Positions 26,717 to 46,155 of a stretch of DNA of 49,516 nt are shown here, piece after piece. The position numbers were made by a program, and so were the translations under genes. The notes beneath the pieces were generated by a model. It ran no database searches and was not told where the DNA came from. It was given only the letters and a program-made list of their open reading frames with translations. The number at the start of each line of letters is the position of its first letter. The first letter of the stretch is position 1. This stretch comes from Candidatus Peregrinibacteria bacterium GW2011_GWF2_38_29 (GTDB lineage: Bacteria; Patescibacteriota; Gracilibacteria; UBA1369; UBA12463), in the NCBI GenBank assembly GCA_000992695.1, contig LBUS01000004.1, forward strand, positions 81,454-130,969, written 5' to 3'.

Positions 26717-26842
26717 ATTGTGCTGGCAACGTCCTACTTTCCCGCGAGCTCTGCTCAGAGTATCATCGGCGAAGAATGGCTTAACTTCTGTGTTCGAAAT
26801 GGGAACAGGTGTAGCCCACTCTCTAAAATTACCAGCACAATG
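26717..26842 (-). rRNA. rrf: 5S ribosomal RNA
   Basis: Minus strand. Terminal helix TGTGCTGG/CCAGCACA; internal conserved segments CCCATTTCGAACACAGAAGTTAAGC (as CCCATTTCGAACACAG and GAAGTTAAGC) and GGGAAAGTAGG. It lies about 150 nt downstream of 23S, so it belongs to the same transcript. Ends are approximate by a few bases. Confidence 0.93.
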
Positions 26843-26884
26843 CCTTTTATAAGAATACAATATTTTAAATAACGTTTAAATGAA

Positions 26885-26911
26885 CATTTTTTTCATAGAT
26901 CGCTAGTTAAA
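26885..26911 (-). other. 23S processing stem, 3' strand
   Basis: On the minus strand TTTAACTAGCGATCTATG and the following A-run pair, with three mismatches, to the leader segment at 30733-30759, giving the long helix that RNase III normally cuts to release 23S rRNA. Confidence 0.7.
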
Positions 26912-27272
26912 CAGCGATATAAAGACCAAACCTGCGAAATAAACCGCAAGCTTAGTCTCTATATGCCGCCGCCTAAGCGAAAATAAATAGAAAAAGTACA
27001 GTCATCTATTAGTACTACTCGACTAAAATTATTACTAATCTTACATCTGTAGCCTATCAACCCGGTGGTCTACCGGGAGATTAATTGGGAGCTCTAATCT
27101 TGGGTACGGCTTCACGCTTAGATGCTTTCAGCGTTTATCCAGACCAAACATAACTACTCTGCTATGCCACTGACGTGACAACAGATATATCAGAGGTTTG
27201 TCCACCCAGGTCCTCTCGTACTATGGGCAGATTCCCTTCAAAGCTCCAACGATCACGGAGGGTAGAGGCCGA

Positions 27273-28022
27273 CAGTTTTGTTACATTTAATTCACAAATG
27301 TGAAATAAACGGATCAGTCATTTCTGCTGATCTCTCTTCATCGCTGAAGAGCTCGGACTATATCTTTATCTCGTTTTACCGAGAGTTTGGCGTATAGTCT
27401 CTGAGGATTTCAAATAATGAACGAATCAAGATTATACTTTGTTCTATATTTGCCTTTACGATTCATACTAAAAGCAACTTTCAACATCTTTTCAAATTCA
27501 TCCTTTACAAGATGTTCCCCGTTTTTCATTCTTCTTATAATATCGGCAAATTTCTTAAAATCGTTGTTTTTACCTGATATTAAAGGAAATTTTTCGAAAA
27601 ACGGAATGATTTTATTATATAGATCATCTCGATTCCTAACTACATAAACATAGTTTTTGTCGTTTGTGTGACGATGATTAGGCTTTATTATTCCACATCC
27701 GAAAGTCTTTTTAATGATTCTGAGCATATTGATGCGATCTTTATGCTGAGAAACTCGAAATTCCGGAATTAATTGCCATTTCAAACGCATTGAATTTCTA
27801 CGTTGAATTGCAATATGGAAACTACCTTCTCCGTCAACAAAACCTGCTATGTAATTATATAATCCACCATTTGATCTTTCCTGCTGATTGTCTGCATTCA
27901 TATATTTTCACCTTATCATAAACTTTACGACACGGTAATATGAAATACTCAGATTTTCCAGCATTTAGCCAAATTTATAGACAGCAATGGCCGTTTTTTA
28001 GCTTGTATAAGCCAAAATTTCT
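27273..28022 (-). mobile_element. Group I intron in the 23S rRNA gene (probably at the E. coli 2593 site)
   Basis: Comparing with the universal exon GTGAGACAGT|TCGGTC sets the splice sites: the 5' exon ends in T at 28023 and the intron ends in G at 27273. The internal guide GCTGTCT (27979-27985) pairs with exon AGACAGT, giving the required U-G pair at the splice site. The P7 strands ACTATACG and AAGATATAGTCC are visible near the 3' end. The insertion point matches the position used by the Chlamydomonas chloroplast intron that encodes I-CreI. The open reading frame 27410-27901 occupies the middle. It is probably self-splicing and mobile. Confidence 0.92.
27410..27901 (-). CDS. LAGLIDADG homing endonuclease, I-CreI-like
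   Basis: Intron-encoded site-specific DNA endonuclease that spreads the intron to intronless 23S genes. The 163-residue product carries one LAGLIDADG motif, YIAGFVDGEGSFHIAI at about residues 17-32, so it should work as a homodimer like I-CreI, which is the same length. A REIIP-like region (RNRDDLYNKIIPFFEKFPL) follows near residue 110 in the place expected for this subgroup. The catalytic acidic residue (Asp/Glu in DGEG) is intact. The start is supported by AAGGTG about 8 nt before the ATG, one of the few purine-rich ribosome binding sites in the window. Confidence 0.93.
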   Translation of the reverse strand: MNADNQQERSNGGLYNYIAGFVDGEGSFHIAIQRRNSMRLKWQLIPEFRVSQHKDRINMLRIIKKTFGCGIIKPNHRHTNDKNYVYVVRNRDDLYNKIIPFFEKFPLISGKNNDFKKFADIIRRMKNGEHLVKDEFEKMLKVAFSMNRKGKYRTKYNLDSFII

Positions 28023-28066
<44 letters not shown>

Positions 28067-28649
28067 TGGCGAACAGCCAAACCCTTAGGACCTTCTCCAG
28101 CCCTAGGATGCGATGAGCCGACATCGAGGTGCCGAACCGAGCCGTCGATATGAACTCTTGGGCCCGACTAGCCTGTTATCCCCGGAGTAGCTTTTGTCCG
28201 TTGAGCGATAGTACACCCACGTGTAACTATCGGATCACTAACGCCTACTTTCGTATCTGCTCGACTTGTTTGTCTCGCAGTTAAGCTGGCTTGTGCGTTT
28301 GCACGACCACTTCGATTTCCATCCGAAGCTAGCCAACCATTGCGCGCCTCCGTTACTCTTTAGGAGGCATCCGCCCCAGATAAACTACCCGCCAAACACT
28401 GTTCCCACGTTTTGCGTGGGTTAGAAACAAAATAAGTTCAGTGTGGTATTTCACTGTCGACTCCGTCCCACCCAGAAGCGGAACATCAAAGTCTCCCACA
28501 TATGCTACGCAAAACATATCTCGTGTCAATGCCAGGTTATAGTAAAGCTTCACGGGGTCTTTTCGCCCTCCCGCGATAAATCGGCATTTTTACCGATACT
28601 GCAATTTCACCGAGTACTTCCCTGAGACAGTCATCAGACCGTTACGCTG

Positions 28650-28715
<66 letters not shown>

Positions 28716-29597
28716 GCGTTCACCAGGGCTTAGATTCGGAGCATACACCCCTCCTCGTGACCTTCTGGCACTGGCCAAGCGTCAGCCCCTATACATATTC
28801 TTACGAATTTGCAGAGACCTGTGTTTTTGATAAACAGTCGCCCGATGTCTTTAACTGTGGCCTCACAGACTAAACATTGCTGAATAATCCATAAGGCAAG
28901 GCTTATCCCGAAGTTACGCCTGCTGTTTTGCCGAGTTCCTTGGGGAAGCATTACTCGATCGCCTTAGGATCCTCTCCTAGCCCACCTTAGTCGGTTTACG
29001 GTACGATAACTTTGGAATCTCGATTTTGAAGTTTTTCTTGGCAGATGAACTCACACGACTCGTCCTACTTGCGTAGGGTATTCGGCGTCACCACTCACTA
29101 ACTCTTACGGATTTGCCTATAAGAGCATAAATTTATGGTTTACACGTAAATTCATTAATACGCTCACGTTATCCATCTGCGTCACTCCCAATCTAGCGCG
29201 ACCTTCCGTTCGCAGGTGTCAATTATTTCAACCGAAGTCGAAATAACCAACTTCTGCTCCCTTCTAGTTTTGCTCTGGCGATTCCAAAGTTGTACGGGAA
29301 TATTAACCCGTTATCCAGTCAGCTTTGCCTTTCGGCTAAACCTTAGGATCGACTAACCCCAAGCCGATTATCGTTGCTTGGGAAACCTTGGGCAATCGGC
29401 GGCCGGATTTTTCATCCGGCTAACGTTACTCATACCAACATTCTCTCTTCCTGACGCTCCACACAACCTCACAGTTATGCTTCGTTGCTGACAGGAATGC
29501 TCCTCTACCACTTTACTAAAAAGTAAAGTCCATATCTTCGGTTGAGATTTTAGCCCCGATATATCTTCGGCGCGAAATCACGTAGACCAGTGAGCTG

Positions 29598-29631
<34 letters not shown>

Positions 29632-30732
29632 AAACCTCCTGGTTGTGTAAGTAATCTCACATCCTTCAACACTTAAATCTCATTAGGGACCTTAGATGAT
29701 GGTGCGGGCTGTTCCCCTTTTGACGACGGTACTTGACTATCATCGTCCGACTCCTGGTAATTCACCAAGGGTATTCGAAGTTTGTCTAGATTTGGTAAGC
29801 TTATTTCGCTCCCTAGTCTAAACAGAGCTCTACCCCCCTTAGTTTCGAAACCAAGGCTAGCCCAAAGACTATTTCGAGGAGAACCAGCTATCGCCGAATT
29901 CGATAAGAATTTCTCTAGCCTACCCTCAGGTCATCACCCAGTCTTGCAACACTGGTGTGTTCGGTCCTCCCTCTAGGTTTCCCTAGAGTTCAACCTGCCC
30001 AAGGGTAGCTCATCCGGCTTCGGGTCTAGTATGTGACACTAAACGGACTATTCGTCCTCGCTTTCACTACGGCTTCGGGTATTACTCCCTTAACCTAGCG
30101 CCACACAGCTAACTCGTTGGTTCGTTCTCCAATAAGCACCCAGTCATCCCTTGCGGGACTCCTGGTCTATGTATGCATAAAGTTTCAGGTTCTATTTCAC
30201 ACCCCTCACAGGGGGTCTTTTCACCTTTCCCTCGCGGTACTAGTTCACTATCGGTCACTTAACCTATTTAGCCTTGGAAGGTGGTCCTCCCAGATTCAAA
30301 CCGGATTTCACGTGTCCGATCCTACTCAGGATACTTCTAGATTTTTATTTTCTTTTCACCTACGGGACTATCACCCTCTATGGTGGCTTTTTCCAAAGAC
30401 CTTTGATTAAGAAAATATAGATCACATCGAAGTCCTACAACCCCATCTCGTCGAAACAAAATGGTTTGGGCTTTTCCCTCTTCGCTCGCCACTACTAAGG
30501 GAATCTCATAATGATTTCTTTTCCTCGGTTACTAAGATGTTTCAATTCGCCGAGTAACTCTCTCCTTGCGGAGTAATTCGATATAAATCGAATTGGGTTT
30601 CCCCATTCGGAAATTTCCGGGTCATAGCTTGCTGACAGCTCGCCGAAACTTATCGCAGTTAGCCACGTCCTTCATCGAAGTTAAGTGCCAGGGCATCCGC
30701 TCTATGCATTGAGTAACTTTTTAAATTTATTT

Positions 30733-32980: not shown

Positions 32981-33652
32981 ATGAATGAAAATCTCAAAAA
33001 AATCGCTTTCATAAGCGCTTTCGTGCTCATCGGATTTCTTGCGATGCAAGTCCCCTTTTCAAACATCCTCGGTGTCACAAATTTAAAATTCAATTTATTT
33101 GATTTCTACGGACCAATCGCCGGAAGCTTCATTGGATCAGTTTGGGGAATGGTTATTGTTGCAGCAATGCAAATCATTAACTGGGCATTTCATGGCTTTG
33201 CAACCGATGCCGGCACATTAATACGATTTCTCCCAATGCTGCTCGCGCTCATCTATTTCGCCAAAAAAACTCCATGGATTTTAATCGCCCCGGGACTCGC
33301 AATGATTGCATTTTGGATACATCCGGAAGGCAGAACCGCTTGGTATTATGCGATGTATTGGATCATTCCATTCGCAATGTATTTCTTCCGCGATAAATTT
33401 GTTTTCGCACGCGCACTCGGCGCAACATTCGTCGCACACTCAGTCGGCAGCGTCGCATTTTTATACGCATTCAATCTCAAGGCAGCCGTATGGACAAGCC
33501 TTATTCCAATAGTTTGGCAAGAAAGAATGTTAATGGCAATCGGAATCACGCTTACGTATATGCTTTTCAATTTCTTGTTAAGCTTAGTTGTAAAAGCAGG
33601 TTTTAAAATGCCTTTTATAAAGTTAAATCCACGCTACTCAATAAAAATTTGA
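32981..33652 (+). CDS. Polytopic membrane protein, possibly an ECF-transporter S component
   Basis: A 223-residue, very hydrophobic protein with about six membrane helices. The early segment VTNLKFNLFDFYGPIAGSFIG, with a conserved-looking polar kink between helices 1 and 2, followed by WGMVIVAAMQIINW, resembles the substrate-specific S components of energy-coupling factor importers (vitamin uptake). The match is to the general plan, not to a named vitamin. No ECF A or T genes are nearby, as is usual for S components that share one module. The TGA stop overlaps the TTGACA of the next promoter. Confidence 0.65.
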   Translation: MNENLKKIAFISAFVLIGFLAMQVPFSNILGVTNLKFNLFDFYGPIAGSFIGSVWGMVIVAAMQIINWAFHGFATDAGTLIRFLPMLLALIYFAKKTPWILIAPGLAMIAFWIHPEGRTAWYYAMYWIIPFAMYFFRDKFVFARALGATFVAHSVGSVAFLYAFNLKAAVWTSLIPIVWQERMLMAIGITLTYMLFNFLLSLVVKAGFKMPFIKLNPRYSIKI

Positions 33653-33678
33653 CAATCGCTCTAGCAATAAACTACAAT
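33649..33678 (+). promoter_or_regulatory. Promoter of the leader-peptide operon
   Basis: TTGACA (33649-33654), an 18-bp spacer and TACAAT (33673-33678). The expected start is around 33685, only a few bases before the leader-peptide ATG at 33688, so the mRNA would be nearly leaderless. Confidence 0.75.
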
Positions 33679-33687
33679 TAAACCAAT

Positions 33688-33750
33688 ATGAATATCCTCG
33701 ATAAATCAATTATGTTTTTCTTTGCAAAGCTTAAAAGCCCGAGGATTTAA
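33688..33750 (+). CDS. Phe-containing leader peptide 1
   Basis: A 20-codon frame starting MNILDKSIM and continuing FFF-AKLKSPRI, ending in TAA. It lies just after a strong promoter and before a terminator hairpin. The last codons (AGCCCGAGGATT) can pair with the 5' arm of that hairpin, as expected for a ribosome-controlled attenuator. A homologous peptide (same MNIL start, a Phe run, SPxI end) is at 33999-34067. The run of Phe codons recalls the pheA and pheST leader peptides of enteric bacteria. Too short to be proven by sequence alone. Confidence 0.6.
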   Translation: MNILDKSIMFFFAKLKSPRI

Positions 33751-33763
33751 TTTGTAAAACATT

Positions 33764-33793
33764 ATCCCGGGCCACAAGCTCGGGATTTTTTTT
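33764..33793 (+). terminator. Attenuator terminator 1
   Basis: ATCCCGGGC-CACAA-GCTCGGGAT followed by a run of eight T residues. The 5' arm can instead pair with CCCGAGGAT at the end of leader peptide 1 (33738-33746). Confidence 0.8.
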
Positions 33794-33820
33794 AAAAAAT
33801 TATTATTAACCAAAAATAAT

Positions 33821-33988
33821 ATGAAACCAGGTCCAAACACATATCACGATCCATCGGACGCACCGGAAGTCGCCCCAGCTTTATCACTTGGAGCGGAAAC
33901 AGCAATAGCAACAGCAGTTGCGTCAGACAAAGACTGGCAAAACCATGGAGCAGCCGCATTAAGCGTATTAGATAAAGAAGCAAAATAA
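33821..33988 (+). CDS. Small unknown protein behind attenuator 1
   Basis: Not recognised. A 55-residue frame (MKPGPNTYHDPSDAPEV...) with a Pro/Asp-rich start and an Ala-rich helical rest (SLGAETAIATAVAS), without signal or membrane segment. The start has TTAACCAAAAATAATATG, matching the motif found at other starts, which supports it as a real gene. It is the first gene of module 1; module 2 begins 10 nt after its stop codon. Confidence 0.6.
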   Translation: MKPGPNTYHDPSDAPEVAPALSLGAETAIATAVASDKDWQNHGAAALSVLDKEAK

Positions 33989-33998
33989 ACTTAAACCA

Positions 33999-34067
33999 AT
34001 GAACATTCTCGGCACCAAAAATACTTTTTTCTTTTACTTTTTTGGACACTTAAGCCCGGGAATTTAA
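33999..34067 (+). CDS. Phe-rich leader peptide 2
   Basis: A 22-codon frame starting MNILGTKNT, then FFFYFF, then GHLSPGI, ending in TAA. Five Phe codons in a stretch of six. The final codons contain AGCCCGGGA, perfectly complementary to the 5' arm of the following terminator hairpin. The start is TTAAACCAATG. Homologous to leader peptide 1. There is no separate promoter between the 55-residue gene and this frame, so it is probably transcribed by read-through of attenuator 1. Confidence 0.65.
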   Translation: MNILGTKNTFFFYFFGHLSPGI

Positions 34068-34088
34068 CGTGAAAAATAACAATCACAA

Positions 34089-34117
34089 ATCCCGGGACTA
34101 AAATCTCGGGATTTTTT
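34089..34117 (+). terminator. Attenuator terminator 2
   Basis: ATCCCGGGA-CTAAAA-TCTCGGGAT followed by a T-run. The alternative pairing of CCCGGGA (34055-34061, inside leader peptide 2) with TCCCGGG (34090-34096) would prevent this hairpin. Confidence 0.8.
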
Positions 34118-34146
34118 ATATATTAAAAACTTTAACCAAAAACAAT

Positions 34147-34434
34147 ATGGAAACCAAAATGGAAACCGAAATGGCAGTGCTAATAATCGAACAAGCATCT
34201 CAAGACGTTGAATTCATAATGTGGCTCACGGGACTCAAGCCAATCGATGAACCAATAACGCAAATGCGAACAAAGGTTCTTAAGGCATTATCACCAACAA
34301 CAGAACTGACAGAGCCAATCAACGCGCCTGAAATCGCCGATCAAATCGCAACGCTTATGGAGATGATGGAAAAAACTAGAACGGCAATGACAATCGTAAA
34401 ACAAGGATCAAGTGCGCCAATCTGGCCAACCTGA
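34147..34434 (+). CDS. Small unknown protein behind attenuator 2
   Basis: Not recognised. A 95-residue, mostly helical, acidic protein (METKMETEMAVLIIEQASQDVEF...) with no signal or membrane segment. TTAACCAAAAACAATATG precedes the ATG. It is the second module of the leader-peptide operon and ends in TGA. The following 70 bp are AT-rich and lead into the convergent macB-type permease gene. Confidence 0.65.
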   Translation: METKMETEMAVLIIEQASQDVEFIMWLTGLKPIDEPITQMRTKVLKALSPTTELTEPINAPEIADQIATLMEMMEKTRTAMTIVKQGSSAPIWPT

Positions 34435-34503
34435 ACCACATTTTTTTGAAAATTAAAAAATTAATAATTAAAAATTATTTGGTTATTGAAGTTTGATAAT
34501 TGA

Positions 34504-35742
34504 TTATTCATACCTTAGCGCTTCCATTGGACTCTTTCTCGCCGCCTGTTTCGCAGGATACAAACCAAAAACAAGACCAACCATTCCGGAAACAAAAAGT
34601 CCAATCAAGGTCGCGGACAATGGGAACACAAATTCCCAAGAAAGCCCAACAACATTACTCAAAATCAATGCAACTAAAAACGATAAAATTGCTCCAAGAG
34701 CAATACCAATTGCGCCACCTGTACCGGTCAATAAAACCGATTCCAATAAAAATTGAAATAAAACATCTTTTTCCGTAGCGCCAACGGCTTTCCTAAGCCC
34801 AATTTCACGAGTTCTTTCCGTAACGGAAACAAGCATAATATTCATAATCCCAATTCCTCCAACAATTAATGAAATCGCGGCAACCGCAATCAAAAACATC
34901 GTCAAAACATCTGTAACAACGCTCAATCTCGAAGCAATATCCTCTTGCGTTTCAATATGAAAATCGTCCTTTTCCGGATCTGTAATATCGTGATTATTTC
35001 TTAAAGTGGTTTCAACATCTCTAACCGTACGTTTAATATTGGCCTCGGAATCCGCCTGAATTATCAAACGCTGATAATATTTCACTCCCAATATATATTG
35101 CTGAGTCGTTGTATAGGGAATAACCGCAATATCATCAAAATTAAAAAATGAAACTTGTCCTTTTTTTGGCATAGTTCCAACAATTCGAAATGTTCTATTT
35201 TTAATTTTAACTCTTTGACCAATTGCATCAGAAGAGCCAAAAAGCTCATCCTTAATGTTTGCACCTATAACAGCAACATCTGCCAAACTTTTCACGTCCT
35301 CATCCGTAAAAAACTCACCTTTATCAACATCCAAATCAAAAATTTCAGAAATCATAGGTGAAGCTCCAAATATCGTCATTCTATAAGTTTCACTCCCGTA
35401 AACAGCGGTCTCAGCCCCAAAAACAACAGGCATAATTCTTGAAATCGTTGGAGCGTTTGATTTTTTCGAAAGAGAATCAAAATCTTTTTCCCTTAAAGAA
35501 TCTGTAAACATTTGTGCGCTATCGCTTGCACCTTTTGGTTGTCTTCCCGGCAAAACAATAACTGTTTTTGAACCCATCCCTTGGATTTGATCCAAAATCA
35601 AATTCTGTGCGCCTTTGCCAAGCGAAGCAATAAGCATAATAGCTGTAATCCCAATAACGATACCAAGGACAGTCAATATAGAACGAGATTTATTCGTTCG
35701 AAGCCCTGTAATCGCTGTTTTTAATGTATATTTTAAAATCAT
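34504..35742 (-). CDS. MacB-like ABC transporter permease
   Basis: Membrane subunit of a tripartite-type efflux or lipoprotein-type ABC system. The 412-residue protein has the MacB/FtsX plan: an N-terminal helix (SILTVLGIVIGITAIMLIASLG), a large extracytoplasmic MacB_PCD domain (about residues 45-270), and three C-terminal helices starting FLIAVAAISLIVGGIGIMNIM, with the conserved ERTREIGLRKAVGAT loop. It lies 2 nt after the ATPase gene; together with the HlyD-like adaptor and MarR regulator upstream it forms a four-gene operon. Confidence 0.94.
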   Translation of the reverse strand: MILKYTLKTAITGLRTNKSRSILTVLGIVIGITAIMLIASLGKGAQNLILDQIQGMGSKTVIVLPGRQPKGASDSAQMFTDSLREKDFDSLSKKSNAPTISRIMPVVFGAETAVYGSETYRMTIFGASPMISEIFDLDVDKGEFFTDEDVKSLADVAVIGANIKDELFGSSDAIGQRVKIKNRTFRIVGTMPKKGQVSFFNFDDIAVIPYTTTQQYILGVKYYQRLIIQADSEANIKRTVRDVETTLRNNHDITDPEKDDFHIETQEDIASRLSVVTDVLTMFLIAVAAISLIVGGIGIMNIMLVSVTERTREIGLRKAVGATEKDVLFQFLLESVLLTGTGGAIGIALGAILSFLVALILSNVVGLSWEFVFPLSATLIGLFVSGMVGLVFGLYPAKQAARKSPMEALRYE

Positions 35743-35744
35743 AA

Positions 35745-36461
35745 TTATTTTATAAATTGAGTTGCTTTAAGGCGATGTTTAACCGCTTCATCACTCGCTA
35801 TTTTCCCATCATGCAATTTAATAATTCTAGTTGCATGTTCGGCGGTATAAGTTTCATGCGTAATCAAAATAATTGTATTTCCATGATCTTCATGTAAGCG
35901 TTGAAGCGTTTGCATAACAATCTGTCCGGATTTTGAATCAAGGTTACCGGTTGGCTCATCCGCAAAAATAACTGAAGGATTAAGTATAAGCGCTCTTGCA
36001 ATTGCGACTCTTTGTTTTTCACCACCGGACAACTGCGAAGGTTCATGATTTATACGATGCATCAATCCAACCGAATCAATAGCTTCCATGGCAAGCGCAT
36101 CCCATTTGCTTTCCGGAATATCCGAATATAAAAGTGGAAGTTTCACATTTTCCAAAACAGTTGTTCTTGGAAGCAAATTAAAAGCCTGAAAAACAAACCC
36201 CATTTTATTATTTCGAAGTTTTGCCAAATCATCTTCCGTATAAGACTCAATCTTTTTACCTTCAAAATAATATTCACCGCCAGTATGTTTATCCAAAAAT
36301 CCAAGAACATGAAGAAGCGTTGATTTTCCTGATCCGGAAGCGCCCATAATAGCTACAAATTCGCCTTTTTTTATATCAAATGTAACACCGTCCAAAGCCG
36401 TTGTTCTGGCATCTCCTTCGCCATATATTTTTTCCAAATTTTTTACCTCAATAATTTTCAT
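35745..36461 (-). CDS. MacB/LolD-type ABC transporter ATPase
   Basis: Energises the neighbouring permease. The 238-residue protein contains Walker A GASGSGKST, Q-loop FVFQAFNLLPRTT, signature QLSGGEKQRVAIARAL, Walker B VIFADEPTGNLD and the switch His in ILITHE. Length and motifs are typical of the MacB/LolD/FtsE group. It starts 1 nt after the adaptor gene stop. Confidence 0.96.
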   Translation of the reverse strand: MKIIEVKNLEKIYGEGDARTTALDGVTFDIKKGEFVAIMGASGSGKSTLLHVLGFLDKHTGGEYYFEGKKIESYTEDDLAKLRNNKMGFVFQAFNLLPRTTVLENVKLPLLYSDIPESKWDALAMEAIDSVGLMHRINHEPSQLSGGEKQRVAIARALILNPSVIFADEPTGNLDSKSGQIVMQTLQRLHEDHGNTIILITHETYTAEHATRIIKLHDGKIASDEAVKHRLKATQFIK

Positions 36462-36462
36462 A

Positions 36463-38199
36463 TTAGTTATTCATAATGACGATCTTATCCCCCGCCTTAA
36501 CTCCTTCCAAAATTTCCATATTCCCATTCACATCACGAATTCCAGCTTTAACTTTAACATCGTAAATTTTTCCATCTTCATCTTGAATTTTCACAAACCT
36601 TTCTCCGTCAATCGCAAAAACCGCTCTCTGAGGCACATAAAGAGCATTTTCACGCGTTGCAGTCACAATATCGATGTTTGCCGTCATACCGGATTTAACT
36701 CGTTCATCTTCTTTATCAAAAGCTAATTTAACTTTATAAGTCGGGACACCTTCAATAACGGTTTCCGCAGGGTCAATAGAAATAACTTTTGCTAAAAAGA
36801 CGTCATTGTCACCATAAGCATCAAGCGTTATGCGAGCCACGTTTTCAACTTTGATTTTAGCAATATCGACATCCGGAATATCAACTTCAACTTCAAATTT
36901 TGCATCACTCATAACAGAAAGAACAGGAACGGCTACTGAAGAAGTCTCACCTGCTTCGAGATTCTTTTTCGAAATAACTCCATTGATTGGAGACTTTATA
37001 ATTGTTTTTTCAAATTGTGCGGCAATGTTTTGATAATTGGCCGCCGCAGAATTAAGCTGTGCACCATAAAAATACACATTAGCCTCGGAAGATTTAACCT
37101 GCGCCTCAGCCGCAGAAATTTGATCAACCGTATTCCCAGCCTTTTTTAAAAGTAAATTGTTTTGAGCGACTGTTAATGCAGACTGCGCAGTTGCCAAATT
37201 CGTTTGATTTGTAATTTTCTGTGCATCAATTGCTTGAAGTTGTCCAACGACTGATGAAATTGCAGTATTAACACCCGTGCGACCAAGCGTAATATAAGTT
37301 TTATAAGACACGGAAGTCGCAGAAGACAAATCTGAAGCATAACTAACAGCAAGCATCAAATTATCCAAAAAAGCTCTAACAATCGATAAATGATATTTTG
37401 CTTTAATCATAGCTTGATTTAAAACCATTTCAGAAGGTGAAACATTTGCTTTTAAAGCATCCAATTCAATGCGCCATGTGTTTAATTCATTTCCGGAAAG
37501 CATTCTCTGCCATTCGGTATCAATTTTAACTTGTGAATTTGAAACAGAAAAAGTTAAACCCGGAGTCGAAGTTTCAGAATTTGAAAACATCCCATCTGTT
37601 TGCTTTCGAACAGCATCATCAGCTTTTGTAAAAGCATCAGCCAAAACATCATTAACGTCGTCCTTCAAAGAAGTGAGATCGTTTTCAGCCTTTGTCTCAG
37701 CATTTCTAAGGCTTGTCATGGCACTATCAACACTTGCCTGTGCTATTTGCAATTCTTCATCGCGAGTTCCCTTCTTTATAGATTCAAAATTTGCTTTTTG
37801 ATAATCAAGACTTGCTTTCGCCTGCATCAACTGCCCCCTTGCAGCTTCAACGCTAGCGCCGGCTTGCCTAACCTGAGCGGAAAAATCGTTATTAACAAGC
37901 GCGGCCAAAACCTGGCCAACTTTCACTTTATCTCCAACCTTAACATTGATATAAGCAACTTTAGCGGCTTTATCAAAAGTAAGATCAATAGTTTCAGCAG
38001 ATTTAACTTTACCGGTAACGGAAACTTCTTGGCTCATATTGCCGATTTTTGCTTCAACCGCTGTAAAATCAAGCTTTGCAGCCTTTGGAATCATTGCGTA
38101 AACAATGATCAATAAAACAAGTCCAATAGGAAGCGACGTCTTCCATTTTATTTTTAGAAACTGCAAAATCGCACGTATCTTATTAAAAATTTTAGTCAT
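36463..38199 (-). CDS. HlyD/MacA-like efflux adaptor protein
   Basis: Membrane-fusion-type adaptor linking the ABC permease to substrate release. The 578-residue product has an N-terminal membrane helix (about residues 19-36), a first half-lipoyl domain (KVGDKVKVGQVLAALVN), a long helical region interrupted by a large Ser/Ala-rich insertion, the second lipoyl half (IKSPINGVISKKNLEAGE), then beta-barrel and membrane-proximal domains. It is longer than E. coli MacA (about 370) because of the extended helical part. Its start overlaps the end of marR by 8 bp, indicating coupled translation. In a cell with a single membrane its partner outside the membrane is unclear. Confidence 0.92.
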   Translation of the reverse strand: MTKIFNKIRAILQFLKIKWKTSLPIGLVLLIIVYAMIPKAAKLDFTAVEAKIGNMSQEVSVTGKVKSAETIDLTFDKAAKVAYINVKVGDKVKVGQVLAALVNNDFSAQVRQAGASVEAARGQLMQAKASLDYQKANFESIKKGTRDEELQIAQASVDSAMTSLRNAETKAENDLTSLKDDVNDVLADAFTKADDAVRKQTDGMFSNSETSTPGLTFSVSNSQVKIDTEWQRMLSGNELNTWRIELDALKANVSPSEMVLNQAMIKAKYHLSIVRAFLDNLMLAVSYASDLSSATSVSYKTYITLGRTGVNTAISSVVGQLQAIDAQKITNQTNLATAQSALTVAQNNLLLKKAGNTVDQISAAEAQVKSSEANVYFYGAQLNSAAANYQNIAAQFEKTIIKSPINGVISKKNLEAGETSSVAVPVLSVMSDAKFEVEVDIPDVDIAKIKVENVARITLDAYGDNDVFLAKVISIDPAETVIEGVPTYKVKLAFDKEDERVKSGMTANIDIVTATRENALYVPQRAVFAIDGERFVKIQDEDGKIYDVKVKAGIRDVNGNMEILEGVKAGDKIVIMNN

Positions 38200-38611
38200 G
38201 TGAATATTTTTTAAGTTTTATAAGAATTTTTTCAAGATCGATAAGCTCTTTATCGGTTAAAGAATCAAGCGCAAGAAAGCCTGCAACATTATTTTTCCAT
38301 GCCGCATCAATAATTGAATCCGCCTTTTTTGTGACAGAAAGATTCACCTCACGCCTATCTTTTTTATCATGCTTTCTTTGTACATATCCGGCCTTTGTGA
38401 GCCCGTCAATAAGAGAAGTCGTTGAAGCATTTCTGATACCAAGCATATTTGAAATATCCCTCATTTTTGCTTTATTTTCTTTAATAAACATAATGGCAAA
38501 CAATTGCGACATATTAAGCCCCAAACAACATTTGCGCAAAGCGCGCGAACGTATAACTCGTCCAAGTTCAAAGAAAAGCTTTATCACTTTCTCATTTATA
38601 TTTTTTGGCAT
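38192..38611 (-). CDS. MarR-family transcriptional regulator
   Basis: Probable autoregulated repressor of the efflux operon. The 139-residue protein has a winged helix-turn-helix (MRDISNMLGIRNASTTSLIDGL, in two parts MRDISNMLGI and RNASTTSLIDGL), the wing KHDKKDRREVNLSVTKK with the conserved DxRxxxLxLT-like pattern, and flanking dimer helices. It is the first gene of the marR-hlyD-ATPase-permease operon. Its promoter is well defined at 38642-38670, and the bases between the -10 and the start contain repeated TTAGATC/TTTAGATA words that could form the operator. Confidence 0.93.
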   Translation of the reverse strand: MPKNINEKVIKLFFELGRVIRSRALRKCCLGLNMSQLFAIMFIKENKAKMRDISNMLGIRNASTTSLIDGLTKAGYVQRKHDKKDRREVNLSVTKKADSIIDAAWKNNVAGFLALDSLTDKELIDLEKILIKLKKYSHD

Positions 38612-38641
38612 ATTTAGGTATCTAAATAGTTAGGAGATCTA

Positions 38642-38670
38642 ATTATATCATGCCTAAAATAAAAGGTCAA
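38642..38670 (-). promoter_or_regulatory. Promoter of the marR efflux operon
   Basis: Minus strand TTGACC (38665-38670), a 17-bp spacer and TATAAT (38642-38647). Just downstream (38613-38641) the words TTAGATC and TTTAGATA are a candidate MarR site. The promoter lies 12 bp after the tRNA-Ala(GGC) 3' end. Confidence 0.75.
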
Positions 38671-38681
38671 TACGCAGAAGT

Positions 38682-38758
38682 TGGTGGAGCCAATGGGGGT
38701 CGAACCCACAACCTCATCCATGCCATGGATGCGCTCTAGCCAGTTGAGCTATGGCCCC
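38682..38758 (-). tRNA. tRNA-Ala(GGC)
   Basis: A 77-nt cloverleaf on the minus strand with a GGGGCCA/TGGCTCC acceptor stem (one G-U), anticodon arm CATCC ATGGCAT GGATG giving GGC, GGGTTCGACCCC in the T arm and an encoded CCA. A structured leader element lies directly 5' of it. Confidence 0.95.
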
Positions 38759-38760
38759 GG

Positions 38761-44687: not shown

Positions 44688-46155
<1,468 letters not shown>

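Follow-up and report, generated by a model that had tools for sequence, protein, structure and literature searches.

Control of biosynthetic operons by leader-peptide attenuation is textbook knowledge, and the mechanism has been known since pheA, pheST and trp. In the reviewed pheA (pheL) and pheST systems of Escherichia coli (PMC11802643), a leader peptide with a Phe run, a terminator and mutually exclusive RNA segments use ribosome position as the sensor, and the genes controlled serve Phe biosynthesis and encode Phe-tRNA synthetase. In Corynebacterium glutamicum, where aroF encodes DAHP synthase, the Phe-Tyr-Phe leader of aroR controls this gene when Phe is limiting (PMC11802643, PMC4046766). 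Tandem leader-peptide attenuators acting on non-biosynthetic genes are found at Salmonella mgtCBR, where both ORFs, mgtM and mgtP, lie before one operon and sense ATP and proline (PMC3641672). We found nothing relevant on leader-peptide attenuation in Peregrinibacteria or Patescibacteria in searches of an open-access library.

Here we describe a locus from a 1.23 Mb Candidatus Peregrinibacteria assembly that, judged from its sequence, very probably comprises a series of two ribosome-mediated Phe attenuators that were retargeted to orphan genes specific to the genus. Within the 49.5 kb of DNA analysed, hereafter the window, the order is an S-component-like gene, a promoter, leader 1, a terminator, ORF1, leader 2, a terminator and ORF2, and the downstream neighbour of ORF2 is a convergent MacB/FtsX-type permease gene (Table 1). 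The S-component-like gene had no match in Pfam or NCBIfam. Elsewhere in the window the rRNA operon is split, with the 16S rRNA gene about 14 kb from 23S-5S and protein genes between them (26721-30723 and 44692-46154).

The modules share with E. coli pheA and pheST the Phe-run leader, the terminator, the exclusive RNA segments and the predicted use of ribosome position, but their targets are orphan genes. Against the Rfam Phe_leader family (RF01859), module 2 scored 22.0 bits relative to a gathering score of 55, and no match was reported for module 1. Salmonella mgtCBR likewise has two leader ORFs per transcript, attenuation through amino acid codons and non-biosynthetic targets; unlike that system, both modules here are predicted Phe sensors, each with its own gene, in an interleaved arrangement. 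The initial annotation had considered two successive copies controlling genes outside amino acid biosynthesis to be new. Given mgtCBR (PMC3641672), that breadth is lost, and the novelty narrows to the lineage, to the control of orphan genes by a predicted Phe switch in the apparent absence of the aromatic pathway, and to the leader-gene-leader-gene order; the mechanism is not new.

Table 1. Features of the two-module locus and the ORF1 paralog. Coordinates are window positions unless a contig is named; the sister genome is GW2011_GWC2_39_14.
Feature	Coordinates	Strand	Remarks
Upstream membrane protein gene, ECF-transporter S-component-like	32981-33652		identity by eye
Sigma-70-like promoter, TTGACA-N18-TACAAT	33649-33678	+	11/12 consensus bases
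Leader peptide 1 (predicted), MNILDKSIMFFFAKLKSPRI then stop	33688-33750	+	frame kept in sister genome
Module 1 segment 1, ATCCTCG	33694-33700	+	partner 33740-33746; 6/2000 shuffles equal
Module 1 segment 2, GCCCGAGGAT	33737-33746	+	alternative partners: segments 1 and 3
Terminator 1, ATCCCGGGCCACAAGCTCGGGAT+T8	33764-33793	+	segment 3 (33764-33772), segment 4 (33778-33786), T-run
ORF1, 55 aa orphan, Phe-free	33821-33988	+	dN/dS about 0.12 vs sister genome
Leader peptide 2 (predicted), MNILGTKNTFFFYFFGHLSPGI then stop	33999-34067	+	frame kept in sister genome
Module 2 segment 1, ATTCTCGG	34005-34012	+	partner 34056-34063
Module 2 segment 2, CCCGGGAAT	34055-34063	+	alternative partners: segments 1 and 3
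Small spacer hairpin, GTGA..TCAC	34069-34086	+	juxtaposes module 2 segments 2 and 3
Terminator 2, AAATCCCGGGACTAAAATCTCGGGATTT+T	34087-34117	+	segment 3 (34087-34097), segment 4 (34104-34114), T-run
ORF2, 95 aa orphan, one Phe	34147-34434	+	dN/dS about 0.23 vs sister genome
ORF1 paralog	G000:C9:58239-58598 (L002 1516-1878)		shares PGPxTYxDPSDA start

The basic inventory drawn up in the initial annotation, namely a strong promoter followed by two modules that each consist of a short Phe-run peptide, a hairpin with a T-run and a small gene of 55 or 95 codons, agrees with the ORFs, the folding and the shuffles. The promoter overlaps the 3' end of the S-component-like gene, and from its position transcription is predicted to start at about 33684-33686, which would make the leader 1 mRNA almost leaderless, with a 5' UTR of about 2-4 nt. 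The end of the -10 box lies 9 bases from the leader 1 ATG (33673-33690). Both leaders are short ORFs with codon runs of the kind expected of attenuators, and are predicted to be translated; in leader 2 the codons that would be sensed are five Phe and one Tyr. In both modules an intrinsic terminator lies between leader and gene, with folding energies of -14.8 kcal/mol (z -4.3) for terminator 1 and -15.1 kcal/mol (z -4.5) for terminator 2. The hairpin pattern is restricted to these two sites, and none of 100 shuffles reproduced it. When both strands of the whole window were scanned for short ORFs with a terminator behind them, 3 pairs emerged, and the only 2 with a single-codon run were leaders 1 and 2.

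The complementarity noticed earlier between the last codons of each peptide and the 5' arm of its terminator is stronger than chance would give: the duplex of segments 2 and 3 (2:3) reaches -15.6 kcal/mol in module 1 and -15.5 kcal/mol in module 2, and was equalled in 2/2000 and 3/2000 dinucleotide shuffles, respectively. This antiterminator is mutually exclusive with the 3:4 terminator in both modules. The switch between 2:3 and 3:4 had been described as a three-segment form; the switch itself stands, but the count overlooked a further pairing between segments 1 and 2, which is significant in module 1 (Table 1) and not in module 2 taken alone (188/2000). Each module thus appears to have a four-segment layout with a putative 1:2 protector, a 2:3 antiterminator and a 3:4 terminator, as in the classical trp and phe leaders. 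Comparison of the modules reveals compensatory changes from C-G to U-A in helix 1:2 and from A-U to C-G in the terminator, the former lending support to 1:2 of module 2. When the partners were slid by 1-3 columns the double changes all vanished and pairing fell from 98% to 61% or less, in a test of only four sequences that form two near-identical pairs. MAFFT alignments of the two modules misplaced segment 3 and were replaced with a model-fitted alignment. The MNIL start and SPxI end, which the initial annotation had listed as peptide motifs, are best read as the imprint that segments 1 and 2 leave on the coding sequence.

With a ribosome assumed to cover 15 nt upstream and 16 nt downstream of the first base in the P site, placing a Phe codon in the A site puts the ribosome front between 33728 and 33734 in module 1 and between 34039 and 34054 in module 2, so that every Phe stall leaves segment 2, which starts at 33737 and 34055, free. 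When the stop codon occupies the A site, segment 2 is wholly covered and segment 3 is not reached, and the terminator can therefore form. Equilibrium folds still favour the terminator at stalls on F11 and F12 of module 1 and on F10, F11 and F15 of module 2; the model thus relies on kinetics, with 2:3 forming before segment 4 is made, as in known attenuators. A stalled ribosome would block segment 1 only in part, and late Phe stalls would require a second, queued ribosome.

We propose the following sequence of events. Transcription would begin at about 33685, with a ribosome entering leader 1 behind RNA polymerase. Were Phe-tRNA plentiful, the ribosome would reach the stop codon and cover segment 2, 3:4 would form, and transcription would terminate at about 33793. 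Were it scarce, the ribosome would stall at the Phe codons with its front just short of segment 2 and with segment 1 blocked by its own body or by the next ribosome; 2:3 would then form ahead of segment 4 synthesis, allowing read-through into ORF1. If leader 1 went untranslated, 1:2 would form and the terminator would win by default. Module 2 would repeat the test on five Phe codons and one Tyr codon before ORF2, so that ORF2 would need read-through at both terminators, likely an AND gate with a steeper starvation response. We infer the response to Phe and the termination from the sequence, and likewise take charged tRNA-Phe to be the signal, an AND gate to be the behaviour and the role suggested below to be that of ORF1 and ORF2. 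The core of the initial annotation's reading, Phe stalling that disarms the terminator, two modules in series and targets of no known family, is supported by structure, geometry, conservation and a parallel at DAHP synthase genes across the order; the layout and the scope of novelty needed revision, and the response to Phe is a prediction.

A sister genome, which matches the public record LBWJ01000011.1 (Candidatus Peregrinibacteria GW2011_GWC2_39_14), carries the entire two-module block in synteny, with ORF1 and ORF2 still following the modules. The -35 and -10 hexamers of the leader 1 promoter are unchanged there. Both leader frames and the alternative pairings of the initial annotation also persist in this close relative: segment 2, segments 3 and 4 and the Phe run are retained in both species and both modules. 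The leaders differ by 2 and 3 bases (5 bases in 4 codons); all 4 codon differences are nonsynonymous and none falls in a Phe codon. A single difference lies in a pairing segment, at the end pair of helix 1:2 of module 1, and this last pair is lost in the sister genome. Such a pattern would be expected if the RNA pairing and the Phe run were selected and the remaining peptide were free to vary. The comparison of Phe codons with synonymous change that had been envisaged is informative only in part: no Phe codon is altered, but with modules in only two species and codons identical in both, selection for Phe identity would look the same as selection for a U-rich tract. Synonymous divergence is appreciable in the neighbouring genes, with dS values of 0.65 for ORF1, 0.45 for ORF2 and 0.34 for the upstream gene, the latter having a dN/dS of about 0.05. 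Because their dN/dS values are also low (Table 1), ORF1 and ORF2 are, on this measure, genuine genes kept by purifying selection.

The third genome of the genus has no module, ORF1 or ORF2 beside the upstream gene; downstream of that gene it carries genes for a tRNA and a methyltransferase instead (both identified by eye). Relative to window positions 33650-38760, its locus (L088) lacks the leaders, the MacAB-like and MarR-like genes and everything between them. This difference suggests that the block was inserted or deleted.

DAHP synthase had no match in the window genome or its sister, and chorismate synthase had none in these two, in the third genome of the genus or in G001, while four other genomes of the family possess it. 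Because DAHP synthase and chorismate synthase are missing, Phe auxotrophy of the window genome is likely, a judgement based on these two enzymes only. No similar leader was seen at pheST of the window genome.

A covariance model built from the four module copies matched, besides itself, aromatic leaders before DAHP synthase genes in G019 and G034, weakly (E 0.02); one of them reads MNTLNKIFGFWFYFYSPIAVRTF up to its stop. Other weak matches (L021-L024, L027 and L028) were plain terminators without a leader and were taken as chance. Among DAHP synthase loci of the same order (L025, L026 and L031-L085), we examined the 42 genes that had enough upstream DNA, scoring as a leader any ORF in which five or more residues out of eight are aromatic. 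Such an ORF lies upstream of 27/42 genes, compared with 1/42 on the reverse strand and 12/840 in shuffles, and a terminator follows 25 of the 27 (2/27 when shuffled). Significant 2:3 pairing, better than 95% of shuffles, was found in 22 of the 25 terminator-bearing leaders with a revised test that takes in the stem plus loop and allows for a gap; an earlier stem-only test had missed terminators offset by one or two bases. Rfam, run on 11 of the loci, matched no family and left the leaders unannotated. The order thus appears to employ Phe or aromatic leader-terminator switches before most of its DAHP synthase genes, as putative regulators of the same design as C. glutamicum aroR-aroF, which belongs to another phylum and is a single attenuator with a biosynthetic target. 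The modules share their architecture with these putative DAHP synthase attenuators, and the gene that the latter precede is absent from the window genome. Four of the DAHP synthase matches (G034:C6, G052:C5, G065:C8 and G009:C12) contain one in-frame TGA each; these could be pseudogenes or frameshifts, or TGA could be read as a residue.

Three other explanations of the locus were weighed. The leaders might be arrest peptides, in which the nascent chain stalls in response to a ligand, a drug or the EF-P state (in the style of TnaC, ErmCL or EF-P) and not to uncharged tRNA-Phe. The RNA switch would be identical, and both leaders are indeed short and hydrophobic with a common SPxI end at the stop. 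However, pairing of segments 1 and 2 already explains the common peptide ends, the interior varies across modules and species (D/N, I/F, HL/LS), unlike that of arrest peptides, and the DAHP synthase leaders have aromatic codons in common and no peptide motif; we regard this explanation as very unlikely. It is also highly improbable that the modules are relics from a lost aromatic operon, now acting as constitutive terminators or spacers among small genes. The usual targets have gone, in that DAHP synthase and chorismate synthase are missing in the window genome and its sister, but synonymous change is near zero in both leaders where the neighbours are well diverged, and the retention of segments 2, 3 and 4 and of the Phe run in both species and modules also speaks against decay.

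That the leader ORFs are functional hydrophobic microproteins, the hairpins plain terminators, and ORF1 and ORF2 served by other promoters would fit the closeness of leader 1 to a strong promoter and the terminator directly after each short ORF. Yet between terminator 1 and ORF1, and before ORF2, there is no good promoter (best 9/12, equal to the shuffled rate), the 2:3 complementarity is significant in both modules, and leader changes that are all nonsynonymous are the opposite of what protein-level selection would leave, making this account extremely improbable.

As targets of the two predicted Phe attenuators, ORF1 and ORF2 are, as first supposed, of no recognised family, with no match in Pfam, NCBIfam or PHROGs, and they are absent from every other genome among 353 of the class. 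A phage origin was considered and dropped, as PHROGs gave no match and viral contigs contained no relatives, and an ORF2-like match in G047 (E 0.0016), whose context contains no corresponding gene, was taken as chance. AlphaFold models ORF1 as a single long helix (pLDDT 78) and ORF2 with a pLDDT of 54, and neither model is good enough to search for related folds. One ORF1 paralog occurs in the same genome, encoding 120 aa from its own promoter without leader or attenuator; it was not found in the sister genome. Next to this paralog lie further small orphan genes whose C-terminal half is similar. Together, ORF1 and ORF2 contain 1 Phe in 150 residues against a background of 5.3% (p 0.003), in a post hoc comparison whose background, window ORFs of at least 200 aa, includes membrane proteins. 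A low content of the sensed residue is expected of proteins needed while that residue is short.

Because such a switch would read Phe in a likely Phe-importing cell, ORF1 and ORF2 are probably turned on during phenylalanine shortage. As a bolder reading, less likely than not, we picture a Phe-auxotrophic, host-dependent genus in which attenuators of a lost pathway were retargeted, so that two nearly Phe-free, lineage-specific proteins may be made when external Phe fails, with the AND gate grading the response. The locus suggests that, in a genome that is reduced and probably symbiotic, an attenuator switch can outlive its pathway and be handed on to new genes. The locus offers a handle on how such a cell responds when the host or community supply of an amino acid stops, and the DAHP synthase leaders across the order provide a ready set in which to follow how the switch evolves.
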